64,000 bases of DNA from Cliona cf. orientalis (taxonomy: Eukaryota > Porifera > Demospongiae > Clionaida > Clionaidae), in assembly GCA_963930775.1 (NCBI GenBank), contig OZ005698.1:7632501-7696500 (forward strand). Reading direction: 5' to 3'. Positions 2,556 to 46,680 of this stretch are shown here, piece by piece. Made by a program: the position numbers and the translations under genes. The first letter of the stretch is position 1. Each line of letters opens with the position of its first letter. The notes beneath the pieces were generated by a model that searched no databases, had not been told where the DNA came from, and saw only the letters and a list, made by a program, of their open reading frames with translations.

Positions 2556-4350
2556 GTGGTACCGTGGAACCCTTGGAGGCTCACGTTTGAATGCATTTCC
2601 ATCCAGCTCTCCTTGTGTGGTGCCACAATGTATGAGAGATTCTTTCATTTTTCCAATGTGATGCTCATCCCATGGAAATGTTTCAATATCCAGCACAAGA
2701 CCAGTATAGCACGCAGTTCAGGTATCAATGCCACTTGTTGCTAATTGGTCGCCATAAATCTTATGTGATTGTGAACGTATCGAACACTGCGATATATATC
2801 TTCCTGGCTCAGGCTTATGATATTGATATTATAGTCCTATAATGCATAAACTAATAACTAGTGCAATAAATAAATAGTAATATTATAACTAGTGCCTAAG
2901 TACTCACAATGAAGACCGATAAAGCTATGCTGAGAGTTCTCACTTGATGCCTAGCCAAAAATTTAATATCGTAGTTGACTGTCCCTGTATATAATAGTTT
3001 TTGCATTCTTTGCAAAGGACATACAATAGCATAAAAATTAATGCTAATATAGAATGTGTGCCCAAAATTAATGAAGTATGAATAAGGAGTTAATAACAAT
3101 AAACAAAAGATAATTATTAAGTTAGTAGTGAAATGATGATTAAAACTTAATTAAGTTGACTCCACACATTTAATTTGAACGATGATAAAGAACAGGAGAG
3201 CAAGTCCAGAGGCAGTGAATTCCATGCTTCAATCGAGCGAATAATGAAGGAGTTCTGAAACTGATTGGTATGGAAACTTGGGTATGCAAAGTACAAATGT
3301 TCAGGGCGGTTTGATGTAGTATCTCAGTATCTCTCCTACCAATTTTGAGTAAACTACTAGAGAAGCACATCTACAGTCTCCTCAATCACCATTTACAGAA
3401 TACCCAACCACTTTCCAACTTTCAATGGGGTATTGGTGGATCTACGAATTATTATTCTAGTTGTATACTATTATCACTTATTTCATGGTCATAATATACC
3501 AGAGGACTTGTTGCACTGGATCTCAATTATGTGGCCAGAAGACTGCAGTTCACTTATGACATCATCCAGTTCTTTGATATCAGATTCACTAGAAACCACC
3601 ATCTGAATGCATGCGTATTTGATGCTTATCTCAGACCTGAGCTCCATGTTAGGATCAGCGCCAAATGAATTAACTCCAATAATGTTGATATTTAGCTCCT
3701 ATAACACTCACATCCATAAGGATCATATATAGACAATCATTATGATTACCTTACCTGAAACACTTTAAGAGCACTAACAAGTGATCCAACTATATCCTGG
3801 ATAGAAAATTTCACAATACAGTAGCTGTATAGTTTTGGTGATCTCTTTGCTTTCTGAATCAGATACATAGCAGTAATAAACATGAATAAACTAGTAATTA
3901 CGCTTGTTGATACCTTTTTTGATCATCGTGCAAGTGAACATTAATAGCAGATTTTTTGAGATTTTTGAACATCTCTCTCTCTCATCTTCAACACACAGGC
4001 ACTCCACATAATTATATGGTTTGATGTCCTGGAATATCATGAGTTTGGAGCATCATATAAGCTGGATTGATTCCAGTAATGTTGATATTGACATGAGCTC
4101 CTGTTGTACATTAAGGTTGAAAAGGTGTATCATTATGAATTGGAATCTTTGCTGCAGTCACTTACTCTAAATGCTTTCAGTGCATTAGCAAGTGCTCCCG
4201 GTTCATCCTTAACGTAAAACTGAAGAGTCCGAGTTGCAATTGATGGCTTAATGTTATGTGATTTAATTAATGCTAATGCTAAATTATTCAAAACCATCAT
4301 CAATGCTAAGATTGAACATACCCACTTTGATATTGAATGCTCCAGCATTC
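2556..4350 (-). pseudogene. Degenerate partial duplicate of ACT-domain exons
   Basis: Six minus-strand blocks match, in order, the last three ACT-like domains of the intact receptor at 4,989-9,012. About 4,166-4,280 carries VKDEPGALANALKAF. About 3,930-4,100 carries NINITGINPAYMML. About 3,750-3,840 carries FSIQDIVGSLVSALKVF. About 3,510-3,700 carries LNINIIGVNSFGADP. About 2,920-2,980 carries YDIKFLARHQVRTL. About 2,740-2,840 carries NINIISLSQE. The fourth-from-last block has an extra 4 bases and a stop. The last block has TAG where the intact gene has CAG, before QQV. No ectodomain or TM exon accompanies it. Best read as a tandem duplication of the receptor's 3' exons that decayed. Confidence 0.75.
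3125..3460. mobile_element. Two LINE reverse-transcriptase remnants in opposite orientation
   Basis: On the minus strand, about 3,125-3,260 encodes RSIEAWNSLPLDLLSC, which resembles the C-terminal tail of CR1/L2-like LINE ORF2 proteins. On the plus strand, about 3,316-3,440 encodes LPILSKLLEKHIYSLL then PLSNFQWG, which resembles the finger region of LINE RT. They sit between two decayed ACT exons and are far too short to be active. Confidence 0.6.
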
Positions 4351-4365
4351 TCTAGAGCTCTTAAG

Positions 4366-4988
4366 ATGGCATTCCTTTTATGAATGAATTATCCAAAAAA
4401 AAAAAAAGTATAAAAATTGAAGGATGAAGAAGGGATGGCAGGGCCAAAAAGCAGTACACAAACAAGATTTTTAGGGGTAATCACGTCCGTCCCTACTGGG
4501 ATCCTGCACTTATTGATGTCGACCCGTTTACTATAATAATAATATTATTGAATCTGAGTCTATGCAGAAATTCATGTTACCATAACAATTATGGCTCGTG
4601 GAGGGGGGGGGGTGGGGGAGAGGGGGATGGTAATTAGTTTTGATTGTTGTATTACTGCCTGGTTAGTTTGTTCAACACCAGAATGCACTGGTGCTAGTAC
4701 TTAATTCTCATAGTATCAAATAATTATACTTAGAATCAATGATGGGAATAATGTTACTGTAACCAGAGTGCTCATGTCGGATTCTGGACTTGATCTAAAG
4801 CGGGTATATAGCTAATTGCTAGCTATACTTATATTATTATTCATTTCCCAAGTTAAGTCTCCCATGCAAACAGTGCATGTAAATAAAAATTAAACGTCAT
4901 AGTACATTCTATGACTATGACAATAACTATCCATGTATACATAATAATTATGTAGGGTATGCTTCAATTTATGTTAATTCTCTTAAGC
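4366..4988. other. Intergenic with G-rich tract
   Basis: No gene seen between the decayed ACT exons and the stop of the ACT receptor. It contains an A-run near 4,396 and a G-rich tract around 4,602-4,626. Confidence 0.5.
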
Positions 4989-7900
4989 TTAAACTCGAGA
5001 CACAGTGGTACCAACTCTTGGAGGCTCATGTTCGAATGCATTTCCATCCACCTCTCCTTGTGTGGTGCCACGATGTATGGGAGATTCTTTCATTCTAGCA
5101 ATGCTATGCTCATCCCACGGAAACATTTCAACATCCAGCACAAGACCAGTAGCACACAGTTTGGGTATCAATGCCACTTGTTGCTGATTGGTCGCCACAA
5201 ATCTTATGTGATTGTGAACATAATATCGTACATCATGAGATACACTTTCCTGGCTCAGACTTATGATATTACTGATGTTATGGTCCTATAATGCATTAAG
5301 TAATGACTATATACAACATTATTATAATTGTGAATAATGACTCACGAAGAAGACAGATAAAGCTTTGATAAGAGTTCTCACTTCATGCCTAGCCAAAAAT
5401 TTAATATCGTAGTTGACCTGTCCCTGTATTGGTGGAACTATGGAACAATATAGATACTATTATCACTTATTTTATTGTCACAATAACATTATACCAGAGG
5501 ACTTGTTGCACTGGACATCAATTATGTAGCCAGAAGACTGCAGTTCACTTACAAGATCCGGTACTTTGATATCTGATTTACTAGAAACCACCATCTGAAC
5601 ATGTTTATATGCGATGCTTATCTCAGACCTGAGCTTCATGCTAGGATCAGCGCCAAATGAATTAACTCCAATAATGTTGATGTTTAGCTCCTACAATACT
5701 CACGTCCATAAGGATCATAGATAATCATTATGATTACCTTACCTGAAACACTTTAAGAGCACTAATAAGTGATCCAACTTTATCTTGGATAGAAAACTTC
5801 ACAATACAGTGGTTTTGGTGAATATTTAGCTTTGAATTTCTTGAAATAGCTGGATCAGATACAGAGCAGAAATGAACACAAATAAAGTTTAAATAATTGG
5901 AGACAGGTCCTTCAATAAGCTGTCTGGCTCAAAGCTCACGACAATCATAATTATAATACTACCACCATACCGATAACTGTTACATAATATCACTGAATGC
6001 CGTCTATATATTATAGCTTAACCTAGTAAAGGCAGTCACATAATGATATTATTGTCTAAGGCAGTTATATAATATTAGTAATACACTCTTGTCGATACCT
6101 TCATGATCATTGTACAATTGAACTTTAATAGCACCACTTGCAGATTTTCTGAGTTTATCGAACAACATCTCTCTTTCATCCTTACCACACTGGCACTCCA
6201 CGTATATAGTTCGATGTCCTGGAATATCATGAGTTGGGAGCATCATGTAAGCTGGATTGATTCCAGTAATGTTGATATTGAGCTCCTGTTGTACATTAAG
6301 GTTGAAAAGGTATATCATTATGAATTGGAATCTTTGCTGCAGTTACTTACTCTAAATGCTTCTAGTGCATCAGCAAGTGCTCCCGGTTCATCCTTAACAT
6401 AAAACTGAAGAGTCTGAGTTGATGGCTCAATGTTGTATTCTATGATTTAATTAGTATCTAATGCTAATTTGTTCAAAATCATCATCAATGCTAAGATTGA
6501 ACATACCCACTTGGATATTGAATGCTCCAGCAACACCTAGAGCTCTTAGGATCTTTTTCTGCTTCCATGTAGAACATACACAACTTACATAACCATTCAT
6601 GTATTCAGACTTGCTGTCATAATCTGAGCGAGTATTTAGCCCATGAATGTTTATTCCATGTTTCTGTATTATATACAGTGATCATGATTAATAATTATCA
6701 TCTGTAATCAGCAAGATTAACACACTCCAAACTCATGTATAACTTCCCACAGTGCTCCTGGTTTATCCTCTACAAAGAATCTGACAATACGAGGTCTTTT
6801 TGTGCTATCTGTGGTCACACCATCAGTGTCTTCTTGAATTGGTACAGGTTTAATTTTAATATCAATGCTTTAAATTGCTTAGTGGTATAGACTAACCATC
6901 ATCCTCAATAAATTCAAGATTAATCTTTGATTGTGCTTTAAGTTGTGCTTTTTCTTCACTTTTGCAGGAAATATGCACATAATTTTCCTTCATTTGACGT
7001 TTTCCAATGCCACAGAATTTCCATTTGATATCATCCTCACTCCAGTAAGTATTAATACGGATAATATTGACATGATTTTTCTGTATCACAATTATTAGTA
7101 TTGATTTTTACTTTTATCCCTCTATATAATACGAAATTACCATTACCTTGAACACTTTCAATATCTGAGCTAAGGTTCCTGGTTTTTCAGAACCTGAAAA
7201 TCTTATGACAATAAGCGATTGGCTGAGCTGATAATATAACATAATTAGAACAATCACCACTCCCCCCACTACGAACACTGTTACCACTGGCACAACTGCT
7301 GCAGGAGTTGCAATACCTGAATTGTCTAATATTTGCACCAATTAATAAGGATTATTAGTTTTCACAGAATTGTTAATTTCCTTACCAATGACATTCGATA
7401 CTTCAATGAGATTTAAAGTTCCTTCCACACTCACTGTTATATTATTGCTCCTGGCAGTGACTGTGAAGCAATATTCAGAAATGTCTTCAAGCAAAGGTAG
7501 CTCAGGGCTTGAAACAGAATCTCCAATTCCTTCACTAGTGTATGAGCCAAGCTGTTGGCCACAATTTGGACCATAAGTAATATTAATGGAACACTCCTTT
7601 GTAGTATCCATTGGTTGGTTCAAAAATGTGCAAATAATAGTTGTCATCTCAGAATTGAAATCAATATTAACAAAGTTGTTCACTCCATCTAGATGTTATA
7701 ATAATGTCAAATTTAATGTGCAAATGATTCAAATTCAATATGGTACCTTGAAATATTGGCTCTGAAGTTGATCCATTTCCAAGCACATTGGTAGCGAAAA
7801 CAGTGACACCAATGTCAGCAGCGGGTGGACAGAGGGATATAGAAGTAAACGAATGAGCACACATCTCATCGGTGCACGATGAAGCTGGGATGGTAGCTGA

Positions 7901-9012
7901 ACCGCAGATACTACCAGAAGAGGAGTCGGAGTAGACTACAGTGTAGGAATAAGTTGACCCGTCAATTCCATCAGATATTTGAAAAGGTTGCTACATAATA
8001 GATCCCACTGATGAAAGTGTGATTGAGTACATGTAAGACGTCTTAAACTTACAGTGGTATTAAAATATACTGTGAGTCTCAGCAGCCTTTTATTATCGAT
8101 ATCACTATCAGAATAATATGGATGAATCTCTATTATAGTAGGAACTTCAGGAACTGAAAAAAGAAAGTAATCCAGAATTACCACTATAATGTATAATTAT
8201 TGCTTGGGTGCAGTATAGAATATACCATTTAGTCTGGCAGTAACTGGCATGCTCTCAGCAGAAGAAAGATTTCCACATATGATACTCTGTACTGTCAGTG
8301 TGCATGTGCTAGGAAGGGTAAACTCTCTGCATGTCATATTGCTGAAGGCTGAATTGTTTTGACATGTTCCACAGTCGTTTGAGATGACATTGAATGTGAG
8401 ATATGGGCACCTCTGTTGAGGTGGTGACCAGCTGAAGGTCAGCTCTCCTGGCCCAGCCATAACAAGTTGGACATTGGTGGGTGGTGGAAAAGGTGCTGCA
8501 TGTACAATGTATATAATGTACGTAACGGATATAATCTTAATCTTACTTGTGGTAATGAAAAGAGTAGATGTATCTATCACTCTGCTTGTGGTGACATCAT
8601 CAATGATACATTCCACAGTCCTTCCGTTCAGTTCAGAGCTGACTAATACATCAAGGTTGGAAGTATAGCAGTTATTTTCCGCTCCAATGTTATACCCAAC
8701 TACTGCTCCATTGTTGCACACCCCTCTAGCAGCACCTGGAACCCCAAACATGGAGTGAAACAGAACAACCTCACAGCTTCCTGATATATCTGTCCCTCTC
8801 CACACAGTGAATCGTCCACCAATAATAGAACATTCATATGTAAAATTTCGACCAGGACAAATGCAGTCAGCCGTGGCAATCAGCTCATTTTTAGCACAAA
8901 AACCTATGATTTTTATATACTAATAATAATTTATTGTACTCTGGCTGGATGATTATTACAACTTACACTGATGTAGTGCTACTAAAATACAGATTAGTAC
9001 CAAAAATTTCAT
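4989..9012 (-). CDS. Ig/FN3 transmembrane receptor with five cytoplasmic ACT-like domains
   Basis: Read right to left. A signal peptide exon (8,967-9,012) starts [17 protein letters not shown] Cys-rich Ig-like exon (8,547-8,903) follows, then FN3-like exons at about 8,225-8,494, 8,050-8,157, 7,748-7,989 and 7,386-7,692. The TM exon (7,147 to about 7,331) has VVPVVTVFVVGGVVIVLIML and runs directly into the first ACT half. Five ACT-like domains (beta-alpha-beta-beta-alpha-beta) follow: SEKPGTLAQILKVF/HVNIIRINTYW; EDKPGALWEVIHEF/GINIHGLNTRS; KDEPGALADALEAF/LNINITGINPAY; QDKVGSLISALKVF/LNINIIGVNSFG; RHEVRTLIKALSVF/HNISNIISLSQ. Each is split by a phase-0 intron at the same place after helix 1, so the array grew by duplication of an exon pair. 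The stop is at 4,989. ACT domains normally bind amino acids or small ligands in cytosolic metabolic enzymes, so a receptor carrying them is unusual. No disruption was seen. Ligand and signalling are unknown. Confidence 0.8.
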
Positions 9013-12949: not shown

Positions 12950-14035
12950 TTGTTTATTAGCCAGGTAGTCCCTTATTTTGGTGATCTGTTCACTCATTGC
13001 TGAGATAGTTGCATCTTTCTCTTCTAGAGCTCTGTTCTTGGCTTCAAGGTCAGAATTCTTTCTTCTAACTAAAGCATCTTTCATTTGAATGATATAATCT
13101 TTATCTACAGCAGCAGTGTGCAGCTCTGAGATGGTGTGTTGAAGAGTGGCATTTTCTAACCTCAATTTTGACAAAATGGATTGTAACTCATGATTACCAG
13201 CCATTAAGCTTTTATTGATTTCTCTCTCTTGAGCTAGTTGTAGGTTGTTGATGCTCTTATGAATGAGATCCATCAGAGGATGATCATCTCCAATGGCTCG
13301 AAGAAACACCTCATGTCACTCAGCTTCTGTGACTGGAATCAGTCTACCATCGGATTCAGTACGATTTGGACCAACCTGTGGCTCTGGCCACCTACCACTG
13401 AAAATGTGGATCGTCATAATGCCGTAGGAGAACTCATCAACACTTGTATCATATTTGGGATTGGCTACCATCACCTCTGGTGGCATGTAGGCAGGGGTGC
13501 CAGGAGTCTGGGTCATGCAACTGATCTATAGAGGGGTCAGGATAAGGATCCTGGCCACACCCAGATCAGAAATCTTGGCTGTCATGTTAGGGGTGGGGAG
13601 GACATTGTTGGAAGAGAGATCTCGGTGAATGATGGGAGGAGTTTGGCCATGGAGAAAGCACAAGCCCAGAGCCACGTTATAAAAGGATGGAGTAACTGAT
13701 CTCCTTTGGGAGAATGCCGTATCGCTCAATGCAGGTGATGTTGGTGGGGAGAAACTCCATCACTAGGATGGGTGCTTGCACACCTTGTTCAAATAGACTC
13801 TCAGAAACTGAACAATGTTGGGATGGCGTACTTGACTGAGTAGACAACATTCTTCTTTCAAACCTGCGAACAGTGTAGCTGGCATCTCCCTGCCTCAGTA
13901 GCAGTTCATGGATCTTCTTGCCAGCACATTTCAGTCTCATGTATTCCAGTTCTAGCACAGTAGCATAGGAGCCATGCCCCAGCTCTTGATCTGTCACTCT
14001 AACCCCAGTCAGTTTGTAGGGATCAAACCCAGTGA
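12950..14035 (-). pseudogene. TKL-type kinase with C-terminal coiled coil, broken copy (unit 1)
   Basis: Nearly identical to the copy at 31,420-32,533. Read right to left: glycine loop GHGSYATVLE, lysine in CAGKKIH, HRDLSSNNVLP catalytic loop, SDLGVAR in place of DFG, TPAYMPPEVM, then a charged heptad-rich tail (ELQSILSKLRLEN... LEAKNRALEEKDATI). Four disruptions are seen against the other copy and the expected frame. One is an extra A in TTTGAAAGAAG near 13,857. One is a lost base near 13,791 that restores the frame, leaving a scrambled stretch. One is an extra T in CCTTTTATAACG (about 13,680), shared with copy 2. The last is CGA to TGA in the codon after EAE at about 13,316. Not functional as read. 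Confidence 0.8.
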
Positions 14036-14455
14036 ATGTACGTTGCTGGTCTCACAGCACTCATTATTAGTCAGCACAAGGAGTAGATAAATGGTCAGCA
14101 AATTAAAAGAGAGTTAACAAGCATGCAGCTATAGCTACCTCATGATCAGCGGCTCACATAAACTCACAGTAAGAGTTGTATATAAACATTCTATCATGTG
14201 ATAACCACAACATTCCATTCTTCAAACGAGTATAGTAACGGATAATATTATAAGGCTGCATACTTCTTATGTTAGTATCCTCTCCAGGACTTCAAAACAA
14301 CATCTCATAGACCATGTATAAACCATAATGTTTACACAAAACGTAATATTTACTGCATATGTACACACTATCATAAATTGTTCACTATCTAGTAGCATAA
14401 TAATAATACATCGTCGTATAATATTAATGTCATATGATGCAGTTCTATTGTAACC

Positions 14456-17400
14456 TTAGATTTCACTCTCTCTAGATGTCTCCTTGCACAGGGGCACATA
14501 CTCTGCCATAGACTCCATGGTAGCTGATAGAGACTGAACTAGCTCAGAGAACGGTGGACGCCTTTTGGGCTCGAGTTCCCAGCACTGTGACATAAACAAA
14601 TACCTATAGTAGTAGATGATCACATTATCAATTAAAGTACACAAATGAATCTCATGAAGTATTACATGTGATCACTGCAGGCAGAATTTTCTGGTTTGTC
14701 CAAACTTTGTCCATTTTTGAGAAACCAGAGGAGATCAGACACATTGATACCAGGATAAGGGACTTTCCCTCCACTGAAAATTTCCCAACAAGTCACTCCA
14801 TAGGCCCACTATGAATTATGTACATATATAATACCATAATTATAGTTAATAGCACAATGGTTGATCTTACTACATCTGATTTTTCTGAGAAGACATGATC
14901 TTCCAAGCTTTCTGGAGCTAACCATCTCAGTGGGAGCTTGATAGTGACTGTTTCATCCTGTCGAAAGTACTCTTTATTCCCCAACATTTCAGCAAGTCCA
15001 AAATCTGCCACTTTGATGACCAAATTCATCCCTATCCTTTGGTAATAGTAATATTATGTGAACACGCACAAATGATATAATAAATTATGCGGATTTTAAA
15101 TTATTAGTATAACTAATATTGCCATGGACTCATGGTAAACTTACATGCAGTTCCTTGCTGCCAGATCTCTGTGAACTATCTTCATGGATGCTAAATATTC
15201 CATTCCTTTAGCAACTTGAAGACACATATCCATCAGCTGTGTGAGGACTGGTTTCATCTGGCCATGGAGTAAAATTTAATTAATGTATAGTCACACCAGT
15301 TAATCATAAAATTTCTGGTAGTTACATTATCTTCTGTTGGCAGTAAAAATGTATTCCTGTTCTTTCTAAGATATGACAGAAGGCTGCCATTTTCCATAAA
15401 TGGTGTGATAATGAAAGGAGCGGGACCTCCATCAACACAAATGCCTATTAGTCTGAGGATGTTGGGATGGTTCAAGTCCTTCATTTTAATGCACTCCCTC
15501 ACAAGCTCTTCGCTGATGGAATGATCATAGAATCCTATATTTATAAAATAATAATATAATTATCAGGTCCATATTAATATATTATATTATTATTCTATAA
15601 TACCTTTTATAGTTTTGACGGCCACAATATCAGTAGGAATATCTTCGACAATTATATATCCCTTATAGACAATTCCAAATTCACCTGCATGATCATGATC
15701 AAAGAGACACAGAGATAGAGGTTATTGCATGCTGCTTATAATTAAAGGTAATTACCTTGTCCAATGCTTTCTGAAAGTTGGATATCGGAGGCAGAGATAA
15801 CAAGAAGATCTGGAATGCTTGAGCTTTGTATATATAGCAAACGCCATTGGGTAAGTATGGTCATCAGCAACATAATTGACTGTAGCATAAAATTGTTCAT
15901 GTAACTAACTTGCACCATGATTAAACACAGGCCTAGCCATAACTTACACTTTTTCTTTGACAGAGACCTATATGCAAAAATTATTAGTCTGATCGAATCA
16001 TTTAACCCTCAGTGCATGTAGCGTGCCACAATGGCTCCGTACGTCGTACTGGAATGTATACGCGATATGGATGCCGGGAGGGGCTGGGAGTTTGGGGGTG
16101 GGTTAGTTAGTCTCTAGGGTTTGTCTATGATAGGGGTGAAATAAATAGCGATGGTGTAGTGGTTGGGGCTCTTGTGTGTGGAACAGAATGTAGCGGGTTG
16201 AAATCTCGCTTTATGCTTTGATTTTTTTCTTTTCACTTATCGAAATTTTTCTAAGTTCTTGCGAGCCATTCCAGCACGGAGCCAATATAGCATGCTGCAG
16301 TACTAGTGCATGCATGTTGGAATAATCAATTATTTAAGCAAATAATGCCATGTCTTGGATCCCAACCTACTGACAGTGTACTAATTTCAGCAAACCTGGT
16401 TCATGCACATGTCGGACTTAAATCTTTACAAACTACAACAACCTCTAGTAATAATTTTTGGGCATGCAGTATAATACTATAGTGGCTATTATAAGTGTGG
16501 TATTAATAATACTAGTTCTAGACTGACATATCACACACACACAAACCATTACCCTATTATTATAGATGCATAATATTATACTGAGGGTTAGCCAACAAGA
16601 ACTCACACATTAAAGTCATTTTTATTGCAATTGGCTTGTAATTTCTTCTTTCTGTAGGCCAACATCCCCCCTATAGCTGCCACGGCCATGATGGTGATGA
16701 TGAACGATCCACCAAGGATACCACCAACTAGAGCTTCATTAGGAACGTTAACTATTGAGTAATTACGATGATTATCATACAAAATAATCATTACACACTA
16801 GATTGTCTCACCATGCAATTTTAATATATGCAAGGTAATAATTTTCCCACAGAATCAACAATTTCTTACCATTGACATTTGATACTTCAAACAGATTTAA
16901 AGTTCCCTCCACACTCACTGTCACATTATTGCTCCTGGCAGTGATTGTGAAGCAATATTCAGAAACATCTTCAATCAAAGGTAGCTCAGGGCTTGAAATA
17001 GAATCACCAGTTCCTTCACTGATGTATGAGCCAAGCTGTTGGCCACAATTTGAACCATATGTAATATTAAGGAAGCACTCCTTTGTAGTATCCATTAATT
17101 GGTTTAAAAATGTGCAAATAATGGTTTTCATCTCGGAATTGAAGTTAATTTCAACAAAGTTGTTTATTCCATCTATAGAATGAACGTTGTATGTCAAATT
17201 TAATGACTGTGAAAATGATTAAACTGATGTACCTTGAAATGTTGGTTCTGAAGTAGGTCCATTTCCAAGCATATTGGTAGCGAAAACGGTGACACCTATG
17301 TCAGCAGCGGGTGGACAGAGAGATAAAGAAGTGTCAAAATTAAAGGAATGAGCACACATCTCATCAGTGCATGATGAAGCTGTGATGGTAGCTGAACCAC

Positions 17401-18566
17401 AGATACTACCAGAAGTTGAGTCAGAGTACATTACAGTGTAGGAATAAGTTGACCCATCAATTTCATCAGATATTTGAAATGGTTGCTATGTAGTAGGCCC
17501 GAGATATGAACACACCACAAAATTAATGAATGTTATAGAATGATTGAGTAAGACCAGGAGTACTCCTGGTAAGACCTCTTAAACTTACAGTGGTATTAAA
17601 GATGACTGTGAGTCGTAGCAATCTCCTGTCACTTTCAGAATAAACCTCTAATATAGTAGGAACCTCAGGAACTGAACAGGAAACAACAGGATATCATGAC
17701 CTAACAGTGATTATAGTTTGCTAGCTATATATAGTAGGATACCATTTAGTCTGGCGATGACTCGATTGCTCATAGTAGAAGCAAGATATCCGCATACGAT
17801 ACTCTGTACTGTCAGTGTGCATGTGCTAGGAAGGGTAAACTCTCTGCATGTCGTATTACTGAAGGCTGAATTGTTTTGACATGTTCCACAGTCGTTTGAG
17901 ATGACATTGAATGTGAGGTATGGGCACCTCTGTTGAGGTGGTGACCAGCTGAAGGTCAGCTATCCTGGCCCAGCCATAACAAGTTGGACATTGGTGGGTG
18001 GTGGAAAAGGTGCTGCATGTACAATGTATGCGTAAAGAAGAAACAGATGATGACCATTTCCATAATAATACATGTACCAACTATAGTCTTACTTGTAGTA
18101 ATGGAAAGTGTAGCTGTATCTATCAGAGTGATTATGACTCCATCATCCATGATACATTCCACAGTCCTTCCATTCAGTCCTGGGCCGACTAATATATCAA
18201 GGTTGGAAGTGTAGCAGTTGTTTTCCACTCCAATATTGTAGCCAACTACTGCGCCACTATTACAGACACCTCTAGCGGCACCTGGTATCCCAAAATCAGA
18301 GTGAAACAATGTAATCTCACAGCCTGCTGAAATTACTGTCCCTCTCCAAACAGTGAATAGTGCACCAACAACTGAACATTCATATGTGAAGTTTCGACCA
18401 GAGCAAATACAATCAGCCGTGGTAATCAGCTCATTTCTTGCACAAAAACCTATGATTTTTTTATAATAATTATTATAGTAATAATAATTTATTGCACTCT
18501 GGCTGGTTAATATGACTTACACTGATGGAGTGCTACCAAAATACAAATTAGTACCAAGAATTTCAT
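14456..18566 (-). pseudogene. Ig/FN3 receptor tyrosine kinase with a nonsense codon (unit 1)
   Basis: Same gene as 32,938-37,139. A signal peptide starts at 18,566 ([16 protein letters not shown]). Ig-like exon about 18,090-18,450, FN3-like exons between about 17,750 and 16,870, TM exon about 16,610-16,756 ([26 protein letters not shown]). Kinase exons follow: [12 protein letters not shown] and [10 protein letters not shown] (about 15,600-15,800), [15 protein letters not shown] (15,254-15,502), [11 protein letters not shown] (about 15,147-15,255), ADFGLAEML and [10 protein letters not shown] (14,870-15,029), [14 protein letters not shown] (about 14,670-14,811), [12 protein letters not shown] and the stop (14,456). 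The kinase motifs are all intact. In the first FN3 domain the GAG seen in copy 2 (GPGELTFSW type) is TAG near 17,967, truncating the protein before the TM. A 9-base in-frame deletion near 17,640 also separates the copies. Confidence 0.8.
16030..16290 (+). mobile_element. tRNA-like SINE element (unit 1)
   Basis: Bounded by GGCTCCGTACGTCGTACTGG and CCAGCACGGAGCC, an imperfect inverse pair. Inside, TGGTGTAGTGGTTGGGGCTC resembles a Pol III A box and GGGTTGAAATCTCGC a decayed B box, followed by a T-rich stretch. The same module recurs at about 34,760 and, with a better B box (GGGTTCGAATCTTGCC), at about 57,775. It lies in an RTK intron. Confidence 0.6.
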
Positions 18567-26654: not shown

Positions 26655-26800
26655 AACTGGCCACAGCCGATAGCGTTACTAAGCAGCAAAGTGGATACAC
26701 GTGTCAATTAGGATTAATTGATAATATTATCATAAGCTATAAGTACGTGCTAATTGCTTGACGACCTTTACCTTTATCGTTAATAAGGTCAGGGTTCAAG
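26655..26800 (+). promoter_or_regulatory. Conserved upstream block of Death-NACHT genes (copy 2)
   Basis: Same block as at 10,690, ending in GGTCAGGGTTCAAGC just before the first ATG. An extra AT palindrome (GATAATATTATC at about 26,719, against GATATC in the copy at about 30,600) lies inside it. Confidence 0.45.
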
Positions 26801-26801
26801 C

Positions 26802-29800
26802 ATGGTTCAAGCAGCCATGATTGATATGGATGTCAGGGAAGATGATCTACCTCGCTTGTATAGGGAATACTTCAGTTCTCGTACCCAATGGAGAGCCCTT
26901 GGTTGTGCCCTAGGAGTCAGTGCTGCCGACTTGGAAGCCATCGAAATAAATCAGCGTGGAAAATGCGAAGACTGCTTTCTACAGGTTCTTATCAGTTGGA
27001 TGAGAAAGAGAGGGAGAAAGACAGAGGAAGAGTTACGTCAAGCTATAGATCTGTGCAATATAGAAGAGGATACCAGCCTATTTCCAAACTGGAGATACAT
27101 TTATACCATCGTGATCTTGCTTAGTATTGTATCAGCTATTCCAACTGTACACATCTATAGACGGGTTGCCTTAATGTGATTCATGACATGAAAGTTCAAG
27201 CCACATGAACATGCGGCCATGATTAGGAAAATCAATACCATCAAGGCTTGTTGCTATGGCAATGAATGTTTTTTTAGATAATGCTATTGACCCATGTAAT
27301 CATCACACCAACTTTGAGACTTGTCTGATCTATTGCTGATTTTATAAAAATCCTAGAAGTGAGCAATTTTCCCATATGTTTGTATGGCAGTAGGGCAAAA
27401 TGTGCCCTACCGCAATACAAACATATGGGAAAATTGCTCACTTCTAAGATTTTTATAAAATCAGCAATAGATCAGACAAGTCTCAAACTTCAGTGTGATG
27501 ATTACATGGGTCAATAGCATTATCTAAAAAAAAATCATTGCCATAACAACATGTCTTGAGGGTACTGATTTTTCTAATTTATGACCTTGCCATGCTAATC
27601 ATATTAAGGCAACCCGTCTATAGGTTGCTCACTGCCAGTTCTCTGACTACAGCCGCACACTCTTTGAAGGGACTGTACAGGTATCACCCAGTGGTGGAGT
27701 TTGAACTACTAGACTTCACCGCTAACATGCCATATATAAATGTGACGATGGAACGTACTGGTTACCCAGGTATGACAGTGGACTTCTGGGAGCTGCTGAA
27801 TAGACTTGATTCGAAACACCAGATGCAGCTACACGCTACTAACCAACCAAGAAAACTTGAAAGGATTTTGATTACGGGCCATCCAGGTGCTGGTAAAACG
27901 ACCCTAATGCGATACTTAGCGAAGGAGTGGGCTAATGGTAGAAGGCTGCAATCATGTAAAGTGTTGTTTCTCATCCAGGTTGGTGACTTATCGAAAGATA
28001 AAGAGCCTCAATCCCTTAGTGACTTACTACAGCTATCGCCGTATAATGATTTAGATCTTGTAGGACTATCCAAAGAAATTCAACAAAGACAGGGAGCTGG
28101 GGTGTGCTTTCTCTTGGATTCGTATGATGAATGGACTGGGAAAAAGGATTTCATACATCGATTATTTTTGAACTTCAACCTTCACTCTTCTTTATGTATA
28201 CTGACATCACGCCCAATTTCTCAAGATCGCAAGTATAAACAGCCTGACATTGAGTCTATTAATATGATTGGCTTCAACAGTCAAGATCTTGAAAAGCACC
28301 TAGAGGCTTTGTCCATGGATAGTCACGTGACTGACTCAGTCACAAAATTGTGGAAAACCAATCACCACATCAAAGAGCTCTGTACACTACCATTAAACTT
28401 GGTGATGTTACTGTCTATCATAAAATATGGAGAAAGGCCTGTTTTCAACGCAAGAACAGAAATGTATTCGGCTTTTGCGAACGTGACAGTAAAGCATTTC
28501 TTAGATCGCCACCCAGGTTGGAACACAGTTTCACTGTGGGAATGTATACTGAGTGTGTCGAATTCACTTCTTGATGAACTGTGTATCGCTTTCAAAGAGT
28601 TACACCGTATAGCATTTGAAATGTTCTTTAATCAAGCAGATAAATTTCCTGATCGTCAGGAGATCAATGGTAATATTCAGAAGCTTGGTTTTGTCAGTAT
28701 AACGAAGGTGAATTCAAATAGGGATGAAGTGATGTACACATTTTATCATCCTACATTTAAGGAATACTTTGCAGGCATTCATTTACTGAATTTGAGAAAG
28801 GAAGAACTATTATATTTGCATATTAAAGAACGTGAAGTAGGATATGCCTTATCACAGCGTAATAATCCTTGGTTGTTCTATTTTGGACTAATTGGAGCTC
28901 ACTTTAATGAAAAGAATGTATCAACGATTTTAAAGCAGCTCTCAATATGTCGAATAATGTGGGACCATTGTGTACCCCTTTGTTATGACAAAGTTGCTTT
29001 TGAATATATCCCAGAAATTGGATGGACTGGCAAGAAACTTTATGAGTTATTAGAGTTTACAGGAATGATTGTGAACTCTACACTATCAACTGATTTCAAT
29101 ATCGACACTTTGGGATACATACTTAATCATACTACTATTCACAAACTCATGATTGAGTCTTCATGCAGTAGGTTATGTCTTGAGGATAGCAACCTGAAAG
29201 TTGCTTCATATGCACAGTTGGAATCACTGAAATCATGTTTACTTAACATCACCGTAGACTTCGACATTCCATGGTTTACTCTTCCTCAAAGTTGGTTACC
29301 ACTGTCCATTCCAACTATCACTCATCTTCATTTTAAGGGAAACATTGGGGGTTATTCGAGTACCTTTAAGTGTTTGTTTGAAGCTGCCACTAGCCTTCAC
29401 TCACTTAGTATTCATTTAATGAACCCTGTAGTTCATTCATCGGTCTCAGCTATAATAAACTCAGGGAGAAAATTGAAAAGCTTGAGTCTTAATTTTGGAC
29501 CACTTTGTTGCAGGAACCTACCACACTACATTAGCTTTCTAGATGCCATATCTAGTAAATATCAACTTATCCGTGAGTTAGAAATTCAAATTACACCACC
29601 TGCAGCTATAGCTCTACATAAAGAATTCCAAAATAATTTTGATTCATGTCGTAAACTACGGATATCTCTTTTCAAGAAAATTAAACATCTTCAAAGGCTA
29701 CAGAAGCTATCACTCACTGATCTAAACTTTTTAAATCATGGTTCTCTATCCAACGTGTACAATAATATTTGTGAATTAAAGGAGTTAATAATTCTCAAAT

Positions 29801-30474
29801 TATCTGGTGTCGGAGCCTCTCAAGTGTTACGGTTGTCACAGTGCCTTCCGCAGACTCTTGAGGAACTTGATCTGTGTTACAATGGTATAAGTGACTACCA
29901 TGTGAATAGGATAGCACAAGGATTGAAACGTTTACGAAAACTCAAGTCACTTAGTCTTTGCGGAAATTCTATCAAAGGAGATAGTTTAAGATCCTTGACG
30001 AAATCACTGAGTTTGCATAGAAACTTTTTTTCACTTGATCTATCGCATAATCCAATTAGTGATCGTGATAATATTGAAGCGCTAGGTAAATTGAAACATC
30101 TTCATGAATTGAAGCTGAAATTTTGCCGAGTTAATGTCAAAGAGCTTGTGGATGTAGTATTGAGTAATAATATTACTTTGAATTCATTGAGTACTACGAG
30201 AAATAACTTGCAACCTCTGGCCAAATTGACTGATCTGCAACACTTAGATGTTTCAAAAGACACTCATTGGTACGCTGCATTTGAAGTAGATAGTAGAAAG
30301 CAATATGACCCTAACATGCTGGTGGTTATGCTAAAGAATCTAACCAAGTTAGAATCGCTGAAACTGTGTGACCACACAGATATGAGTATTCATTGGAGTA
30401 CTGATTTTGCTAGAGCTATCAGCCATCATCTTCCATATCTTCGTCTATTTCATGCCCTATGTTTGTGTGCATAG
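26802..30474 (+). CDS. Death-TM-NACHT-LRR (NLR-like) gene split by a foldback MITE
   Basis: A single-exon gene in two open parts. Part 1 (26,802-27,179) is a Death domain (LPRLYREYFSSRTQW... EINQRGKCEDCF) followed by a hydrophobic helix (YTIVILLSIVSAIPTVHI). A MITE (27,161-27,617) then cuts it. Part 2 is open to 30,474; its first ATG is at 27,592 inside the MITE. It carries P-loop GHPGAGKTT, Walker B CFLLDSYDEW, a CILTSRP sensor motif and a C-terminal LRR region (ELDLCYNGISD, SLSLCGNSIKG, SLDLSHNPISD). Family knowledge: NLRs oligomerise through NACHT after sensing a ligand, and sponges have large Death/CARD-NLR families. Whether both parts still work as one product is doubtful. The NACHT-LRR part shows no decay. 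An upstream ATG at 26,802 or the conserved ATG at 26,826 could start the Death part. Confidence 0.85.
27161..27617. mobile_element. Foldback MITE with 6-bp TSD CTATAG inside an NLR
   Basis: The ends ACGGGTTGCCTTAAT and ATTAAGGCAACCCGT are inverse repeats. Almost the whole element is one palindrome with arms of about 200 bases meeting near 27,400 (AGGGCAAAATGTGCCCT). CTATAG flanks both sides (27,155-27,160 and 27,618-27,623). The other three NLR copies have CCATAGG once at this site and no insert. Confidence 0.92.
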
Positions 30475-31419: not shown

Positions 31420-32533
31420 TTATAATAATATTATAGCCAGGTAGTCCCTTATTTTGGTGATCTGTTCACTCATTGCTGAGATAGTTGCATCTTTCTCTTC
31501 TAGAGCTCTGTTCTTGGCTTCAAGGTCAGAATTCTTTCTTCTAACTAAAGCATCTTTCATTTGAATGATATAATCTTTATCTACAGCAGCAGTGTGCAGC
31601 TCTGAGATGGTGTGTTGAAGAGTGGCATTTTCTAACCTCAATTTTGACAAAATGGATTGTAACTCATGATTACCAGCCATTAAGCTTTTGTTGATTTCTC
31701 TCTCTTGAGCTAGTTGTAGGTTGTTGATGCTCTTATGAATGAGATCCATCAGAGGATGATCATCTCCAATGGCTTGAAGAAACACCTCATGTCGCTCAGC
31801 TTCTGTGACTGGAATCAAGCTACCATTGGATTCAGTACGATTTGGACCAACCTGTGGCTCTGGCCACCTACCACTGAAAATGTGGATCATCATAATGCCG
31901 TAGGAGAACTCATCAACACTTGTATCATAATATTTGGGATTGGCTACCATCACCTCTGGTGGCATGTAGGCAGGGGTGCCAGGAGTCTGGGTCATGCAAC
32001 TGATCTGTAGAGGGGTCAGGATAAGGATCCTGGCCACACCCAGATCAGAAATCTTGGCCGTCATGTTAGGGGTCAGGAGGACATTGTTGGAAGAGAGATC
32101 TCGGTGAATGATGGGAGGAGTTTGGCCATGGAGAAAGCACAAGCCCAGAGCCACGTTATAAAAGGATGGAGTAACTGATCTCCTTTGGGAGAATGCCGTA
32201 TCGCTCAATGCAGGTGATGTTGGTGGGGAGAAACTCCATCACTAGGATGGGTGCTTGCACACCTTGTTCAAAATAGACTCTCAGAAACTGAACAATGTTG
32301 GGATGGCGTATATACTTGACTGAGTAGACAACATTCTTCTTCAAACCTGCGAACAGTGTAGCTGGTATCTCCCTGCCTCAGTAGCAGTTCATGGATCTTC
32401 TTGCCAGCACATTTCAGTCCCATGCATTCCAGTTCTAGCACAGTAGCATCGGAGCCATGCCCCAGCTCTTGATCTGTCACTCTAACCCCAGTCAGTTTGT
32501 AGGGATCAAACCCAGTGAATGTATGTTGCTGGT
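31420..32533 (-). pseudogene. TKL-type kinase with C-terminal coiled coil, frameshifted (unit 2)
   Basis: Read right to left. The exon begins near 32,533 (FTGFDPYKLTGV), then glycine loop GHGSDATVLE and lysine CAGKKIH. A 4-base TATA insertion (about 32,310) comes before RHPNIVQFLRVYFEQG. There is an extra T in CCTTTTATAACG (about 32,160), shared with unit 1. From 32,208 it is open: IIHRDLSSNNVLLTP, SDLGVARIL, TPAYMPPEVM, DEFSYGIMMIHIFSG and a long coiled coil (SKLRLENATLQHTISEL, ALEEKDATISAMSEQI), ending YLAIILL at 31,420. DLG replaces DFG, as in some TKL and pseudokinase families. Its 3' end abuts the truncated NLR, tail to tail. An intron or sequencing slip at the T run could explain the shared break. 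Confidence 0.75.
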
Positions 32534-32937: not shown

Positions 32938-35900
32938 TTAGATTTCACTCTCTCTAGATGTCTCCTTGCACAGGGGTACATACTCTGCCATAGTCTCCAT
33001 GGTAGCTGATAGAGACTGAACTAGCTCAGAGAACGGTGGACGCCTTTTGGGCTCGAGTTCCCAGCACTGTGACATAAACAAATACCTATAGTAGTAGATG
33101 ATCACATTATCAATTAAAGTACACAAATGAATCTCATGAAGTATTACATGTGATCACTGCAGGCAGAATTTTCTGGTTTGTCCAAACTTTGTCCATTTTT
33201 GAGAAACCAGAGGAGATCAGACACATTGATACCAGGATAAGGGACTTTCCCTCCACTGAAAATTTCCCAACAAGTCACTCCATAGGCCCACTATGAATTA
33301 TGTACATATATAATACCATAATTATAGTTAATAGCACAATGGTTGATCTTACTACATCTGATTTTTCTGAGAAGACATGATCTTCCAAGCTTTCTGGAGC
33401 TAACCATCTCAGTGGGAGCTTGATAGTGACTGTTTCATCCTGTCGAAAGTACTCTTTATTCCCCAACATTTCAGCAAGTCCAAAATCTGCCACTTTGATG
33501 ACCAAATTCATCCCTATCCTTTGGTAATCACGCACAAAATATAATAAATTATGCAGGTTTTAAATTATTAGTATAACTAATATTGCCATGGACTCATGGT
33601 AAACTTACATGCAGTTCCTTGCTGCCAGATCTCTGTGAACTATCTTCATGGATGCTAAATATTCCATTCCTTTAGCAACTTGAAGACACATATCCATCAG
33701 CTGTTTGAGGACTGGTTTCATCTGGCCATGGAGTAAAATTTAATTAATGTAGTTACACCAGTTAATCATAAAATTTCTGGTAGTTACATTATGATCTTCT
33801 GTTGGCAGTAAAAATGTATTCCTGTTCTTTCTAAGATATGACAGAAGGCTGCCATTTTCCATAAATGGTGTGATAATGAAAGGAGCAGCACCTCCATCAA
33901 CACAAATGCCTATTAGTCTGAGGATGTTGGGATGGTTCAAGTCCTTCATTTTAATGCACTCCCTCACAAGCTCTTCGCTGATGGAATGATCATAGAATCC
34001 TATATTAAAATAATATTATAATTATCATAATGCATTTGAATGTTAGATCCATATTAATTATATATTATTCTATAATACCTTTTATAGTTTTGACGGCCAC
34101 AATATCAGTAGGAATGTCTTTGACAATTATATATCCCTTATAGACAATTCCAAATTCACCTGCATGATCATGATCAAAGAGACACAGAGGTTATTGCATG
34201 CTGCTTAAAGGTAATTACCTTGTCCAATGCTTTCTGAAAGTTGGATATTGGAGGCAGAGATAACAAGAAGATCTGGAATGCTTGAGCTTTGTATAGCAAA
34301 CGCCATTGGGTAAGTGTGGTCATCAGCAACATAATTGACTGCAGCATAAAATTGTTCATGTAACTAATTTGCACCATGATTAAACACAGATCTAGCCATA
34401 TAACTTACACTTTTTCTTTGACAGAGACCTATATGCAAAAATTATTAGTCTAATCATTTAACCCTCGGTGCATGTAGCGTGCCACAATGGCTCCGTACGT
34501 CGTGCTGGAATGGTCACTGTAGGGAGGCGCGCGCAACAGTGGTTCGTTCATGGTATACATATGTATGCGCCCCAGCTAGCCCCACTCACCTATACCGTAT
34601 ACGCAGTATAGGTGGGTGGGGCTGGGGGGGTTGGGGATGGGTTGCCAATGGTTAGCAGGATTAGTCTTTAGGGTTTGCCTATACGCGATATGGATGGGAG
34701 GGGCTGGGAGTTTGGGGATGGGTTAGTCTCTAGGGTTTGTCTATGATAGGGGTGAAATAAATAGCGGTGGTGAGTGGTTGGGGCTCTTGTGTGTGGAACA
34801 GAATATAGCAGGTTGAAATCTCGCTTTATGCTTTGATTTTTTTCTTTTCACTTGTCGAAATTTTTCTAAGTTCTTGTGAGCCATTCCAGCACGGAGCCAA
34901 TATAGCATGCTGCAGTACATATAAATCAATTATTTAAGCAAATAATGCCATGTCTTGGATCCCAACCTACTGACAGTGTACTATTTTCAGCAAATTTGGT
35001 TCATGCACATGTCGGACTTAAACTACAACAACCTCTAGTAATAATTTTTGGGCATGCAGTATAATACTATAAGTGTGGTATTAATAATACTAGTTCTAGA
35101 CTGACATATCACACACACACACAAACCATTACCCTATTATAATATTATAGATGCATAATATTATGCTGAGGCTTAGCCAACAAGAACTCACACATTAAAG
35201 TCATTTTTATTGGCTTGCACTTTCTTCTTTCTGTAGGCCAACATCCCCCCTATAGCTGCCACGGCCATGATGGTGATGATGAACGATCCACCAAGGATAC
35301 CACCAACTAGAGCTTCATTAGGAACTATTGAGTAATTACGATGATTATCATACAAAATAATCATTACACACTAGATTGTCTCACCATGCAATTTTAATAT
35401 ATGCAAGGTAATAATTTTCCCACAGAATCAACAATTTCTTACCATTGACATTTGATACTTCAAACAGATTTAAAGTTCCCTCCACACTCACTGTCACATT
35501 ATTGCTCCTGGCAGTGATTGTGAAGCAATATTCAGAAACATCTTCAATCAAAGGTAGCTCAGGGCTTGAAATAGAATCACCAGTTCCTTCACTAATGTAT
35601 GATCCAAGCTGTTGGCCACAATTTGAACCATATGTAATATTAAGGAAGCACTCCTTTGTAGTATCCATTAATTGGTTTAAAAATGTGCAAATAATGGTTT
35701 TCATCTCGGAATTGAAGTTAATTTCAACAAAGTTGTTTATTCCATCTATAGAATGAACGTTGTATGTCAAATTTAATGACTGTGAAAATGATTAAACTGA
35801 TGTACCTTGAAATGTTGGTTCTGAAGTAGGTCCATTTCCAAGCATATTGGTAGCGAAAACGGTGACACCTATGTCAGCAGCGGGTGGACAGAGAGATGAA

Positions 35901-37139
35901 GAAGTGTCAAAATTAAACGAATGAGCACACATCTCATCAGTGCATGATGAAGCTGGGATGGTAGCCGAACCACAGATACTACCAGAAGTTGAGTCAGAGT
36001 ACATTACAGTGTAGGAATAAGTTGACCCATCAATTTCATCAGATATTTGAAATGGTTGCTATGTAGTAGGCCCGAGATATGAACACACCACAAAATTAAT
36101 GAATGTTATAGAATGATTGAGTAAGACCAGGAGTACTCCTGGTAAGACCTCTTAAACTTACAGTGGTATTAAAGATTACTGTGAGTCGTAGCAATCTCCT
36201 GTCACTTTCAGAATAATATGGATAAACCTCTAATATAGTAGGAACCTCAGGAACTGAACAGGGAACAACAGGATATCATGACCTAACAGTGATTATAGTT
36301 TGCTAGCTATATATAGTAGGATACCATTTAGTCTGGCGATGACTCGATTGCTCATAGTAGAAGCAAGATATCCGCATACGATACTCTGTACTGTCAGTGT
36401 GCATGTGCTAGGAAGGGTAAACTCTCTGCATGTCGTATTGCTGAAGGCTGAATTGTTTTGACATGTTCCACAGTCGTTTGAGATGACATTGAATGTGAGG
36501 TATGGGCACCTCTGTTGAGGTGGTGACCAGCTGAAGGTCAGCTCTCCTGGCCTAGCCATAACAAGTTGGACATTGGTGGGTGGTGGAAAAGGTGCTGCAT
36601 GTACAATGTATGCGTAAAGAAGAAACAGATGATGACCATTTCCATAATAATACATGTACCAACTATAGTCTTACTTGTAGTAATGGAAAGTGTAGCTGTA
36701 TCTATCAGAGTGATTATGACTCCATCATCCATGATACATTCCACAGTCCTTCCGTCCAGTCCAGGGCTGACTAATATATCAAGGTTGGAAGTGTAGCAGT
36801 TGTTTTCCACTCCAATATTGTAGCCAACTACTGCGCCACTATTACAGACACCTCTAGCGGCACCTGGTATCCCAAAATCAGAGTGAAACAATGTAATCTC
36901 ACAGCCTGCTGAAATTACTGTCCCTCTCCAAACAGTGAATAGTGCACCAACAACTGAACATTCATATGTAAAGTTTCGACCAGAGCAAATACAATCAGCC
37001 GTGGTAATCAGCTCATTTCTTGCACAAAAACCTATGATTTTTTTATAATAATTATTATAGTAATAATAATTTATTGCACTCTGGCTGGTTAATATGACTT
37101 ACACTGATGGAGTGCTACCAAAATACAAATTAATTTCAT
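32938..37139 (-). CDS. Ig/FN3 receptor tyrosine kinase (unit 2, apparently intact)
   Basis: The signal peptide starts at 37,139 ([12 protein letters not shown]). Ig-like exon about 36,673-37,030 ([16 protein letters not shown]), FN3-like exons about 36,325-36,595, 36,165-36,255, 35,806-36,060 and 35,444-35,757. The TM exon is about 35,190-35,325 ([18 protein letters not shown]). Kinase exons: GEFGIVYKG and [10 protein letters not shown] (34,080-34,162), [15 protein letters not shown] and [10 protein letters not shown] (about 33,790-34,000), [11 protein letters not shown] (about 33,610-33,725), ADFGLAEML and [10 protein letters not shown] (about 33,355-33,520), [14 protein letters not shown] (about 33,155-33,293), [12 protein letters not shown] and the stop at 32,938. 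It has GAG where unit 1 has [15 protein letters not shown] and DFG indicate an active tyrosine kinase. The ectodomain is shared with the ACT receptor at 4,989-9,012. Head-to-head with the TxYxxI receptor at 37,290-38,286. Exon edges approximate. Confidence 0.78.
34482..34895 (+). mobile_element. tRNA-like SINE element (unit 2)
   Basis: Same element as at 16,030, bounded by GGCTCCGTACGTCGTGCTGG and CCAGCACGGAGCC, but with about 150 extra bases at the head (GGGATGGGTTGCCAATGG type repeats). The longer copy shows that the unit 1 copy has an internal loss. Confidence 0.6.
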
Positions 37140-42444: not shown

Positions 42445-43355
42445 TTTTTTTTTTTCTATAATACTTTATGCAACACATAGGTATGCAGTGGATACATAGA
42501 TAGTTAAGACAACTAATCAAGTATGTACCCAAAAACTATGTAAAAGTATAATAAAACGAAAAGAAAAGCAGACACACAAGTTAATTATGAGGCATTGAAA
42601 TGCTATTTTTGAAAGACGCGAGAGTCTGCATTGTGACCTGATCTTCGTTCAGCAAATTCCACGCTCGGATTGAGCTTGGAACAAAGGAGTGAAAATAGTA
42701 GTTTGTTCGAGCAAACGGACATTGTAGAGTGTCTGATCTTGCGAGCCTACTGGAGTGGGAGGGTTGTGTGATGAAGATGTCCTCAGGGAAATAGCAGAGG
42801 CCATGAACAATCTTGAAGACTTGTGCAAGTTTCAGGTGAAGTCGCCGCTCACTAAGTTTTGGTACATCAGTGATGCTTACCAACTGCTCATAACCCAAGT
42901 TCCACTGTCGTGAGATCAACTTGAGGGCAAACTTCTGTACTGCTTCCAGCCTATCAGTATCGCCTTGTAGGTAGGGGTCCCAGACTTGCGATGCATATTC
43001 CAAGTGAGGGCGGACTAGGCTAATGTACAGCTGCTTAAGGGTGGCTGGATCAACATTCTCATAAAATTGCCTATACAGTAGGCCTAGAATCCTTCTTGCT
43101 TTAGTGCAAAGTTCAGAAATGTGATCTGACCAAGAAAGATTCCTGCTGAAGAGCACACCAAGGTATTTAAAGATCTCCACCTCTTCTAGCTCTGACCCAC
43201 ACAAGTAAAGAGACACCGATCTGGTTGTTGGACATCTTTTTTTAGAGAGGATCATAGACTTGCACTTCTGTGGATTAAGCTGTAGTAGGTGATTATCAGA
43301 CCATTCCTCCAGTTTAGTTACATCTGACTGGAGTTTAGTTACATCTGACTGGAGT
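42445..43355 (-). mobile_element. 5'-truncated LINE insertion with poly-A and 9-bp TSD
   Basis: The minus strand encodes the C-terminal part of a LINE RT: LNPQKCKSMILSKK, VEIFKYLGVLFSRNLSW, LVRPHLEYASQVWDP, RAWNLLNEDQ, stop at 42,581. A T-run at about 42,443-42,456 is the poly-A tail in reverse. TACACCCTT flanks both ends (42,436-42,444 and 43,356-43,364). It lies between a divergent receptor pair. Confidence 0.88.
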
Positions 43356-46668: not shown

Positions 46669-46680
46669 GTTCAAACGGCC

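Follow-up and report, generated by a model that had tools for sequence, protein, structure and literature searches.

ACT domains are best known as the metabolite-sensing parts of soluble enzymes and of soluble sensors. The regulatory domain of the human aromatic amino acid hydroxylase (AAAH) PAH dimerizes on phenylalanine (Phe), and in the Phe-bound structure the site is made of the motifs ExVxAL and YxF and the Asn61-Ser67 segment (NLTxIxS), contributed by two protomers (PMC4822156). Elsewhere, four ACT domains make up the cytosolic arginine sensor CASTOR1 (PMC5187391), and the plant ACR proteins contain ACT domain repeats (PMC6081435). Here we describe gene A, which is predicted to encode a cell-surface receptor with a tail of five ACT domains and which lies on the minus strand, at 9,012-4,989 (C10:7,637,489-7,641,512 in the contig names used below), of a 64,000-nucleotide stretch of the genome of the sponge Cliona cf. 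orientalis (assembly GCA_963930775.1, contig OZ005698.1, positions 7,632,501 to 7,696,500; the whole stretch is called the window below). The initial annotation of the window knew of no described receptor with an Ig/FN3 ectodomain and an ACT array, and our searches of the open-access literature for ACT domains together with receptor, transmembrane or sponge terms likewise found none; subscription papers and general protein databases lay outside this search.

Results

A predicted receptor with five ACT repeats

The 16 exons of gene A, which we placed by hand, are joined by GT-AG introns into a single open frame of 971 amino acids, on the strand and at the coordinates first proposed. Kyte-Doolittle hydropathy exceeds 1.6 only at the N-terminus (residues 1-21) and in one stretch within residues 442-483, matching the signal peptide and the transmembrane (TM) helix of the initial annotation, and the product is predicted, by hydropathy only, to be a type I single-pass receptor whose ACT array would lie in the cytoplasm. 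The 432 residues of the ectodomain include 8 NxS/T sites and 22 Cys, and the 497 residues of the tail 3 and 9, respectively. Each of the five repeats is encoded by an exon pair, the first exon of which stops in phase 0 after FK, FG, FR, FQ or FF, and the common position of this internal intron in all five repeats, noted at the outset, is confirmed by the gene model. The pairs are bounded by phase-1 introns and the last one closes the gene. The TM helix shares exon 7 with the first half of ACT1, an arrangement found in a single open frame in all eight genes of the family described below.

The identity of the repeats as ACT domains, also proposed initially, is well supported. The whole protein matches the Pfam ACT family PF01842 with E=2.4e-29 and 101 bits, over four stretches. 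Taken singly, repeats 2 and 3 exceed the gathering score of 27 (Table 1), repeat 1 just fails (26.5 bits), repeat 4 lies below it and repeat 5 gives no match. Repeat 5 is to be placed as an ACT relative solely via its counterparts in the paralogues. In a set of 28 repeats from five genes, 20 match PF01842 at E<=0.01; the third repeat of the gene on contig C3 and the repeats of the genes on C5, C11 and C1 (13.93 Mb) were omitted from the alignment, tree and counts based on this set.

A profile built from the 28 repeats retrieved 24 PDB sequences at E<=0.1. The list is headed by 11 sequences of TPH2, TPH1 and PAH (best E-value 1.4e-9); below them come aspartokinase, designed repeat proteins, acetolactate synthase, prephenate dehydratase and a few others. 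The best PDB match of the array is TPH2 and is located in ACT3. Compared with a profile of the four AAAH ACT domains of the same genome, the 28-repeat profile gave a probability of 98.3% (E=2e-14, 20% identity). These matches point to ACT domains of the AAAH (PAH/TPH) type. The initial annotation had named PAH, prephenate dehydratase and ACR proteins as known carriers of ACT domains; the repeats are closest to the first, and the other two score lower, the ACR9-type Pfam match of the gene A protein being weak (17.9 bits, cut-off 27). The biopterin-dependent hydroxylase domain PF00351 has no match in the gene A protein. We consider the receptor architecture and the ACT identity of its tail close to certain.

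A family of ACT receptors in the sponge genome

We searched the whole genome (216.8 Mb in 149 contigs) at the protein level, taking as queries the array of gene A, those of the genes on C1 and C18, and ectodomain exon 6, and recovered at least eight ACT receptor genes on six contigs (Table 1); family counts are lower bounds because the search scores the best candidates only. The receptor architecture claimed for gene A thus recurs across a gene family. A six-frame search of the genome with the Pfam ACT family found two matches only, both in PAH-like genes, and missed the receptors, presumably because introns split the domain. A pattern search for relatives in prokaryote genome contigs gave 45 matches and no relative. 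Family genes other than A were modeled by our own spliced-alignment script or by eye, the repeats of gene E (contig C1) and gene C (contig C3) being read by eye from open frames. The script put the exon 6/7 intron of gene B a few residues from its position in gene A, and it forced the whole query to align, which makes the last small exons (C18 from 11,700, C1 from 9,187) and the order of C1 repeats 4-7 artefacts.

In a tree of the 28 repeats and the four AAAH domains, the two sets stand apart at 96/91, one AAAH row being a long branch. The ACT2 repeats of the five genes cluster together (99/97), and genes E and C agree by position at six of the six repeats compared. Genes A, B and D agree at ACT1-3 and disagree at ACT4-5, A5 and B5 grouping with D4 (whose placement is less sure), and the ACT1 repeats of A, B and D are not joined with those of E and C. 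The pattern suggests that much of the array predates the divergence of the genes and that distal repeats were later shuffled or diverged. Together with the intron phases of gene A and the model of gene B, the tree agrees with the growth by exon-pair duplication that had been proposed from the window.

Between genes A and B, dN/dS (ratio of nonsynonymous to synonymous substitution rates; Nei-Gojobori method, own script) is 0.34 (0.28-0.42) for the whole protein, 0.31 for the ectodomain and 0.34 (0.25-0.47) for the ACT region; for single repeats the intervals are wide, with upper ends of 0.53-0.89. These values suggest that the ACT arrays have been kept by selection.

An intron shared with the hydroxylases

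In genes A, B and D, all five repeats of each carry the array intron, in phase 0 and four residues ahead of the Asn of the NI motif. Small insertions lie beside it in A5 and D2; in repeat 5 of gene A, one inserted residue moves it to five residues before this Asn. The one-exon ACT1 of the contig C3 gene, without internal intron, is an exception. The sponge genome has three AAAH genes on contig C13 and one on contig C1, two of which have an intron at the array position and two of which do not. Those that have it are the third C13 gene and the C1 gene (FE|ELGIN and IFE|STGANI, phase 0), and each of them closes its second ACT exon in phase 1, before VPWF; the first ACT exon of the third C13 gene contains an in-frame Met. 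The other two, tandem PAH-like genes on C13, have the whole ACT domain on one exon, which looks like intron loss. For human PAH, the source cited has intron 2 following c.168 and intron 3 preceding c.353 (PMC4579200), and the Asn of the NI strand is given as Asn61 (PMC4822156). By these positions the two introns are in phase 0 and phase 1, as in the array, and because c.168 ends codon 56, the distance from intron to Asn is likewise four residues. The upstream boundary is different, being in phase 1 in the array repeats and in phase 0 in human PAH.

This shared intron is most simply explained if the array descends from an AAAH exon pair, and an AAAH-related origin seems to us very probable. Alternatively, the array and the AAAH ACT domain could both stem from an older ACT gene that already had the intron. 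The eighth ACT receptor ends near C1:13,935,568, about 2.4 kb upstream of the C1 AAAH gene, which begins near C1:13,937,941 on the same strand (region C1:13,932,701-13,942,000) and whose own ACT domain has the shared intron. For eight receptors and two hydroxylase loci, a rough chance of such closeness (less than 5 kb), as a post hoc comparison, is about 8 x 2 x 10 kb / 216.8 Mb = 0.0007. That a receptor adjoins a hydroxylase gene slightly raises the odds of an AAAH-related origin, and it would fit a possible capture of hydroxylase exons by a neighboring receptor gene; a later rearrangement could also have brought the two together.

Ectodomain and neighboring kinase genes

The Ig/FN3 label of the ectodomain is weaker than the initial annotation had it. 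Its FN3 component has a Pfam fn3 match below the cut-off in exon 3 (Table 1), and no Pfam Ig domain was found in the four gene A ectodomain pieces scanned. AlphaFold gave a weak all-beta fold for exon 2, the best model having a confidence score (pLDDT) of 66.6 and the other four 33-43. None of 1985 Foldseek matches of this model reached E<=0.001, and the 50 matches listed are, by title, complexes with antibodies or nanobodies, or structures that often contain one; on this modeling, the first ectodomain module is likely to be Ig-like. Exon 5 recurs in six further genes of the family.

The window also contains two receptor tyrosine kinase (RTK) genes (Table 1), the ectodomain exons of which are 75% (exon 2), 85% (exon 3) and 84% (exon 6) identical to those of gene A, and the TM exon of which, read in RTK 1, is unlike that of A. 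RTK 1 exons match PF07714 and both genes have kinase motifs; with a synonymous divergence (dS) of 0.03, the two appear to be recent duplicates. Over ectodomain exons 2, 3, 5 and 6, dS is 0.28 between A and B, 0.25-0.27 between A and the RTKs and 0.26 between B and the RTKs, falling to 0.07-0.09 for exon 3 of A and the RTKs. The ACT regions of A and B show a dS of 0.49, and the lower values of the ectodomain fit a swapping of ectodomain exons, or conversion between them, in either direction between ACT receptors and RTKs. In a tree of exon 2, the RTKs fall beside A and B (89/95) and on the ACT-receptor side (100/99, with a long-branch warning), and ACT receptors and RTKs are separate from seven other receptor-like exons of the region; in a tree of exon 6 they again fall together (99/99), in an unresolved internal order. 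The exon 6 module occurs at no fewer than 75 places in the genome, gene A included. One of these, on contig C5 at 10.68 Mb, is a third kinase gene, with a TM exon, a single-exon kinase and 41% identity in exon 6; its kinase frame shows, by eye, the motifs HRDLCSDN and DFGM. A motif scan for kinases in the other stretches then examined showed none, and divergent kinases would escape such a scan.

Table 1. Features of the window and members of the ACT receptor family (positions are those of the window unless a contig is named)
Feature	Position	Strand	Basis or remark
Exon 1: start codon and signal peptide	8967..9012	minus	Gene model; hydrophobic residues 1-21
Exon 2: first ectodomain module, probably Ig-like, all-beta, low-confidence fold	8547..8903	minus	AlphaFold/Foldseek; no Pfam Ig
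Exon 3: FN3-like module	8226..8495	minus	Pfam fn3 E=0.0027, 18.3 bits, cut-off 25
Exons 4 (8153-8053) and 5 (7990-7747): second ectodomain module, FN3-like by position only	7747..8153	minus	No Pfam match
Exon 6: membrane-near ectodomain module	7386..7688	minus	No Pfam match; similar modules in ACT receptors and in kinases
Exon 7: TM helix and ACT1 first half (beta1-alpha1)	7147..7325	minus	Gene model, hydropathy; same in 8/8 genes
Exon 8: ACT1 second half, phase 0 to 1	6897..7080	minus	Gene model, Pfam
ACT2: exons 6832-6726 and 6663-6507	6507..6832	minus	Pfam ACT 37.0 bits, E=2.9e-9
ACT3: exons 6439-6351 and 6285-6099	6099..6439	minus	Pfam ACT 30.3 bits, E=3.5e-7
ACT4: exons 5849-5743 and 5690-5495	5495..5849	minus	Pfam ACT 21.3 bits, below cut-off
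ACT5 (degenerate) and C-terminal tail: exons 5437-5346 and 5285-4989	4989..5437	minus	No Pfam ACT match alone
Second, partial, broken ACT array copy (end of ACT2 to ACT5)	2568..4379	minus	In-frame stops, frame breaks
RTK 1: tyrosine kinase with an ectodomain like that of A and another TM exon	14456..18566	minus	In-frame stop in FN3-like exon
RTK 2: same ectodomain, FN3-like exon without stop	33409..37133	minus	Kinase motifs 33637-33409; gene end not determined
Gene B	Contig C10, 45 kb from A		Intact 968-aa model, same 15 introns, same phases
Gene C	Contig C3		Seven ACT repeats, long introns, ACT1 in one exon
Gene D	Contig C18		Five ACT repeats
Gene E	Contig C1, 9.28 Mb		Seven ACT repeats
C5 member	Contig C5, 2.0 Mb		About 4 ACT repeats in short stretch read, some halves not found
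C11 member	Contig C11		About 4 ACT repeats in short stretch read, some halves not found
Eighth member	Contig C1, 13.93 Mb		About 5 weak ACT repeats

No TM helix or ectodomain was found with the broken array copy downstream of gene A. The gene A protein ends in -SRV (4,989-5,000) and the gene B protein in -SEV, ends that resemble class I PDZ ligands. Near each RTK lie kinase-like frames with a coiled-coil-like stretch (13,316-14,051 and 31,420-32,238, minus strand), the first copy being fragmented. Two long open frames on the plus strand (26,787-30,474 and 46,612-49,888) look by eye like Death-NACHT-LRR (NLR) genes, and a minus-strand frame within the receptor cluster (42,581-43,354) looks, also by eye, like the end of a retrotransposon reverse transcriptase. 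Elsewhere in the genome, the signature of silicatein, a marker of demosponges, has three pattern matches, against none in a reversed control; two of them, on contig C12, read CGASYAFS, and the one inspected sits, by eye, in a frame resembling cathepsin.

Discussion

Our analysis suggests that an AAAH ACT exon pair became attached to a TM exon and grew to about 4-7 copies, which selection has kept. In the receptor that would result, the ACT domains would start some 5-15 residues past the membrane and pair side by side via their beta sheets, within and between chains, and an amino-acid-like or other small cytosolic ligand might bind at the ACT interface, as in PAH. An outside cue that clusters the ectodomains and ACT pairing inside the cell would then favor each other, making the receptor a switch with two inputs or a scaffold. 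Metabolite sensing or dimerization through ACT pairs, in an immune-type receptor, had also been put forward as a possibility in the initial annotation. Since their ectodomains are almost the same, the ACT receptors and the kinases may share a cue, in which case competition or co-clustering might let the former tune the latter. As a whole, an ACT-array receptor with pairing and possible ligand gating is the best explanation we can offer, plausible and held tentatively. Its parts differ in strength: ACT-mediated pairing is rather likely, and gating by a small ligand is conceivable and somewhat doubtful.

Several observations weigh against this explanation, which as a whole is built on sequence. 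ACT5 is degenerate, the odd repeat numbers (5 and 7) are ill-suited to simple within-chain pairing, and the TM part of A and B has a dN/dS of 1.6 (0.6-9.0), a short and ill-determined stretch. Pfam finds no signaling domain besides ACT in the gene A tail, short motifs not having been searched. At the ligand site, the Glu of the PAH motif IES is Asn in 25 of the 28 repeats, and the two YxF positions, aligned via the sponge hydroxylases, are aromatic (Tyr/Phe) in 1/28 and 3/28. Most Phe-site residues are lost, and ligand binding may therefore be lost or changed; Phe binding in the manner of PAH is not supported by these repeats, and another small ligand is possible.

The alternative that survives best is that the array is a ligand-blind module for dimerization or scaffolding, which retained the fold and the pairing of sheets and senses no metabolite; we regard it as a real possibility, if a doubtful one. 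It would explain why residues corresponding to those that contact Phe in the PAH structure (PMC4822156) are largely replaced while fold positions persist, the Gly of the first motif in 27/28 repeats, the Leu in 26/28 and the Asn of the NI motif in 25/28, a pattern that suggests that the fold and the pairing surface are likely to be conserved. Against ligand blindness, the recurrent Asn that replaces the PAH Glu hints that the repeats have a contact in common at the edge of the ligand, but a structural role could also account for it. TPH2 is said in the title of one paper (PMC5055035) to be induced by Phe to dimerize, which also speaks for a ligand.

A second alternative, to which we give little credence, is that the protein is mainly a decoy or brake that competes with receptor kinases for an extracellular ligand, its tail serving to anchor or cluster it. 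The similar ectodomain exons (75-85% identical to A) of the two RTKs of the window, set on a different TM exon, would suit such a role, as would an ectodomain dS between A and the RTKs like that between A and B, and the kinase tail of the third exon-6 gene on C5. An anchor of this kind is harder to reconcile with an ACT region as constrained between A and B as the ectodomain, and with the 11 best of the 75 exon-6 places, 8 of which have ACT tails and 3 kinase tails.

Could an ectodomain-TM gene and a separate ACT-repeat gene have been read as one? Introns were placed by hand or by our script; nevertheless such an artefact is highly improbable and we rejected it, because exon 7 itself encodes the TM helix together with half of ACT1, in the same open frame in each of the eight genes, gene B shares all 15 introns and their phases, and the domain order recurs at six other, divergent loci. 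The chance that the repeats belong to another ferredoxin-like family is slighter still, even for TRADD-N, which the source cited describes as a structural relative of ACT that has undergone a vast expansion in the sponge Amphimedon (PMC8195603), and we ruled it out because TRADD-N is absent among the Pfam families matched by the gene A protein or the 28 repeats, 11 AAAH sequences head the PDB list and the intron lies where it does in AAAH genes.

Returning to the ACT-array receptor with pairing and possible gating, a bolder version would make these proteins a class of two-input sponge receptors, responsive to an extracellular cue and to a cytosolic amino-acid-like metabolite, which arose by capture of an AAAH domain, perhaps from a neighboring gene, and which couple nutrient state to kinase signaling or to self/microbe recognition; we consider this speculative and, taken in full, unlikely. 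If true, the regulatory half of a metabolic enzyme became a receptor tail in an animal lineage, and recognition at the cell surface would be linked to cytosolic metabolites in a way that can be tested. An exon-shuffling origin is made unusually traceable by the shared intron and by the receptor adjoining a hydroxylase gene, and in the swap of kinase and ACT tails under one ectodomain nature has run its own experiment in receptor design.

Among known systems, the plant ACR proteins resemble the sponge receptors in having ACT repeats without a catalytic domain, but they are plant proteins, for which the source cited, as far as it goes, describes no receptor part; plant-ACR-type domains were ruled out by their weaker Pfam score and by the AAAH sequences at the head of the PDB list. 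CASTOR1, as described in its source, is likewise an animal protein of several ACT domains and no enzyme, but it is soluble and lacks a receptor part, and we ruled out CASTOR-type domains since no CASTOR chain is among the 24 PDB sequences retrieved. The receptor kinases of the same genome share ectodomain exons with the ACT receptors, closely in the two genes of the window and more distantly in exon 6 of the C5 gene, and differ in having another TM exon and a kinase in place of the ACT array. The AAAH proteins (PAH, TPH1 and TPH2) have one ACT domain ahead of a soluble hydroxylase, whereas the sponge receptors have several behind a TM helix, with changed Phe-site residues; it is nonetheless to the AAAH proteins that the array is linked by its best sequence matches, by the position and phases of its introns and by one family member that adjoins an AAAH gene.

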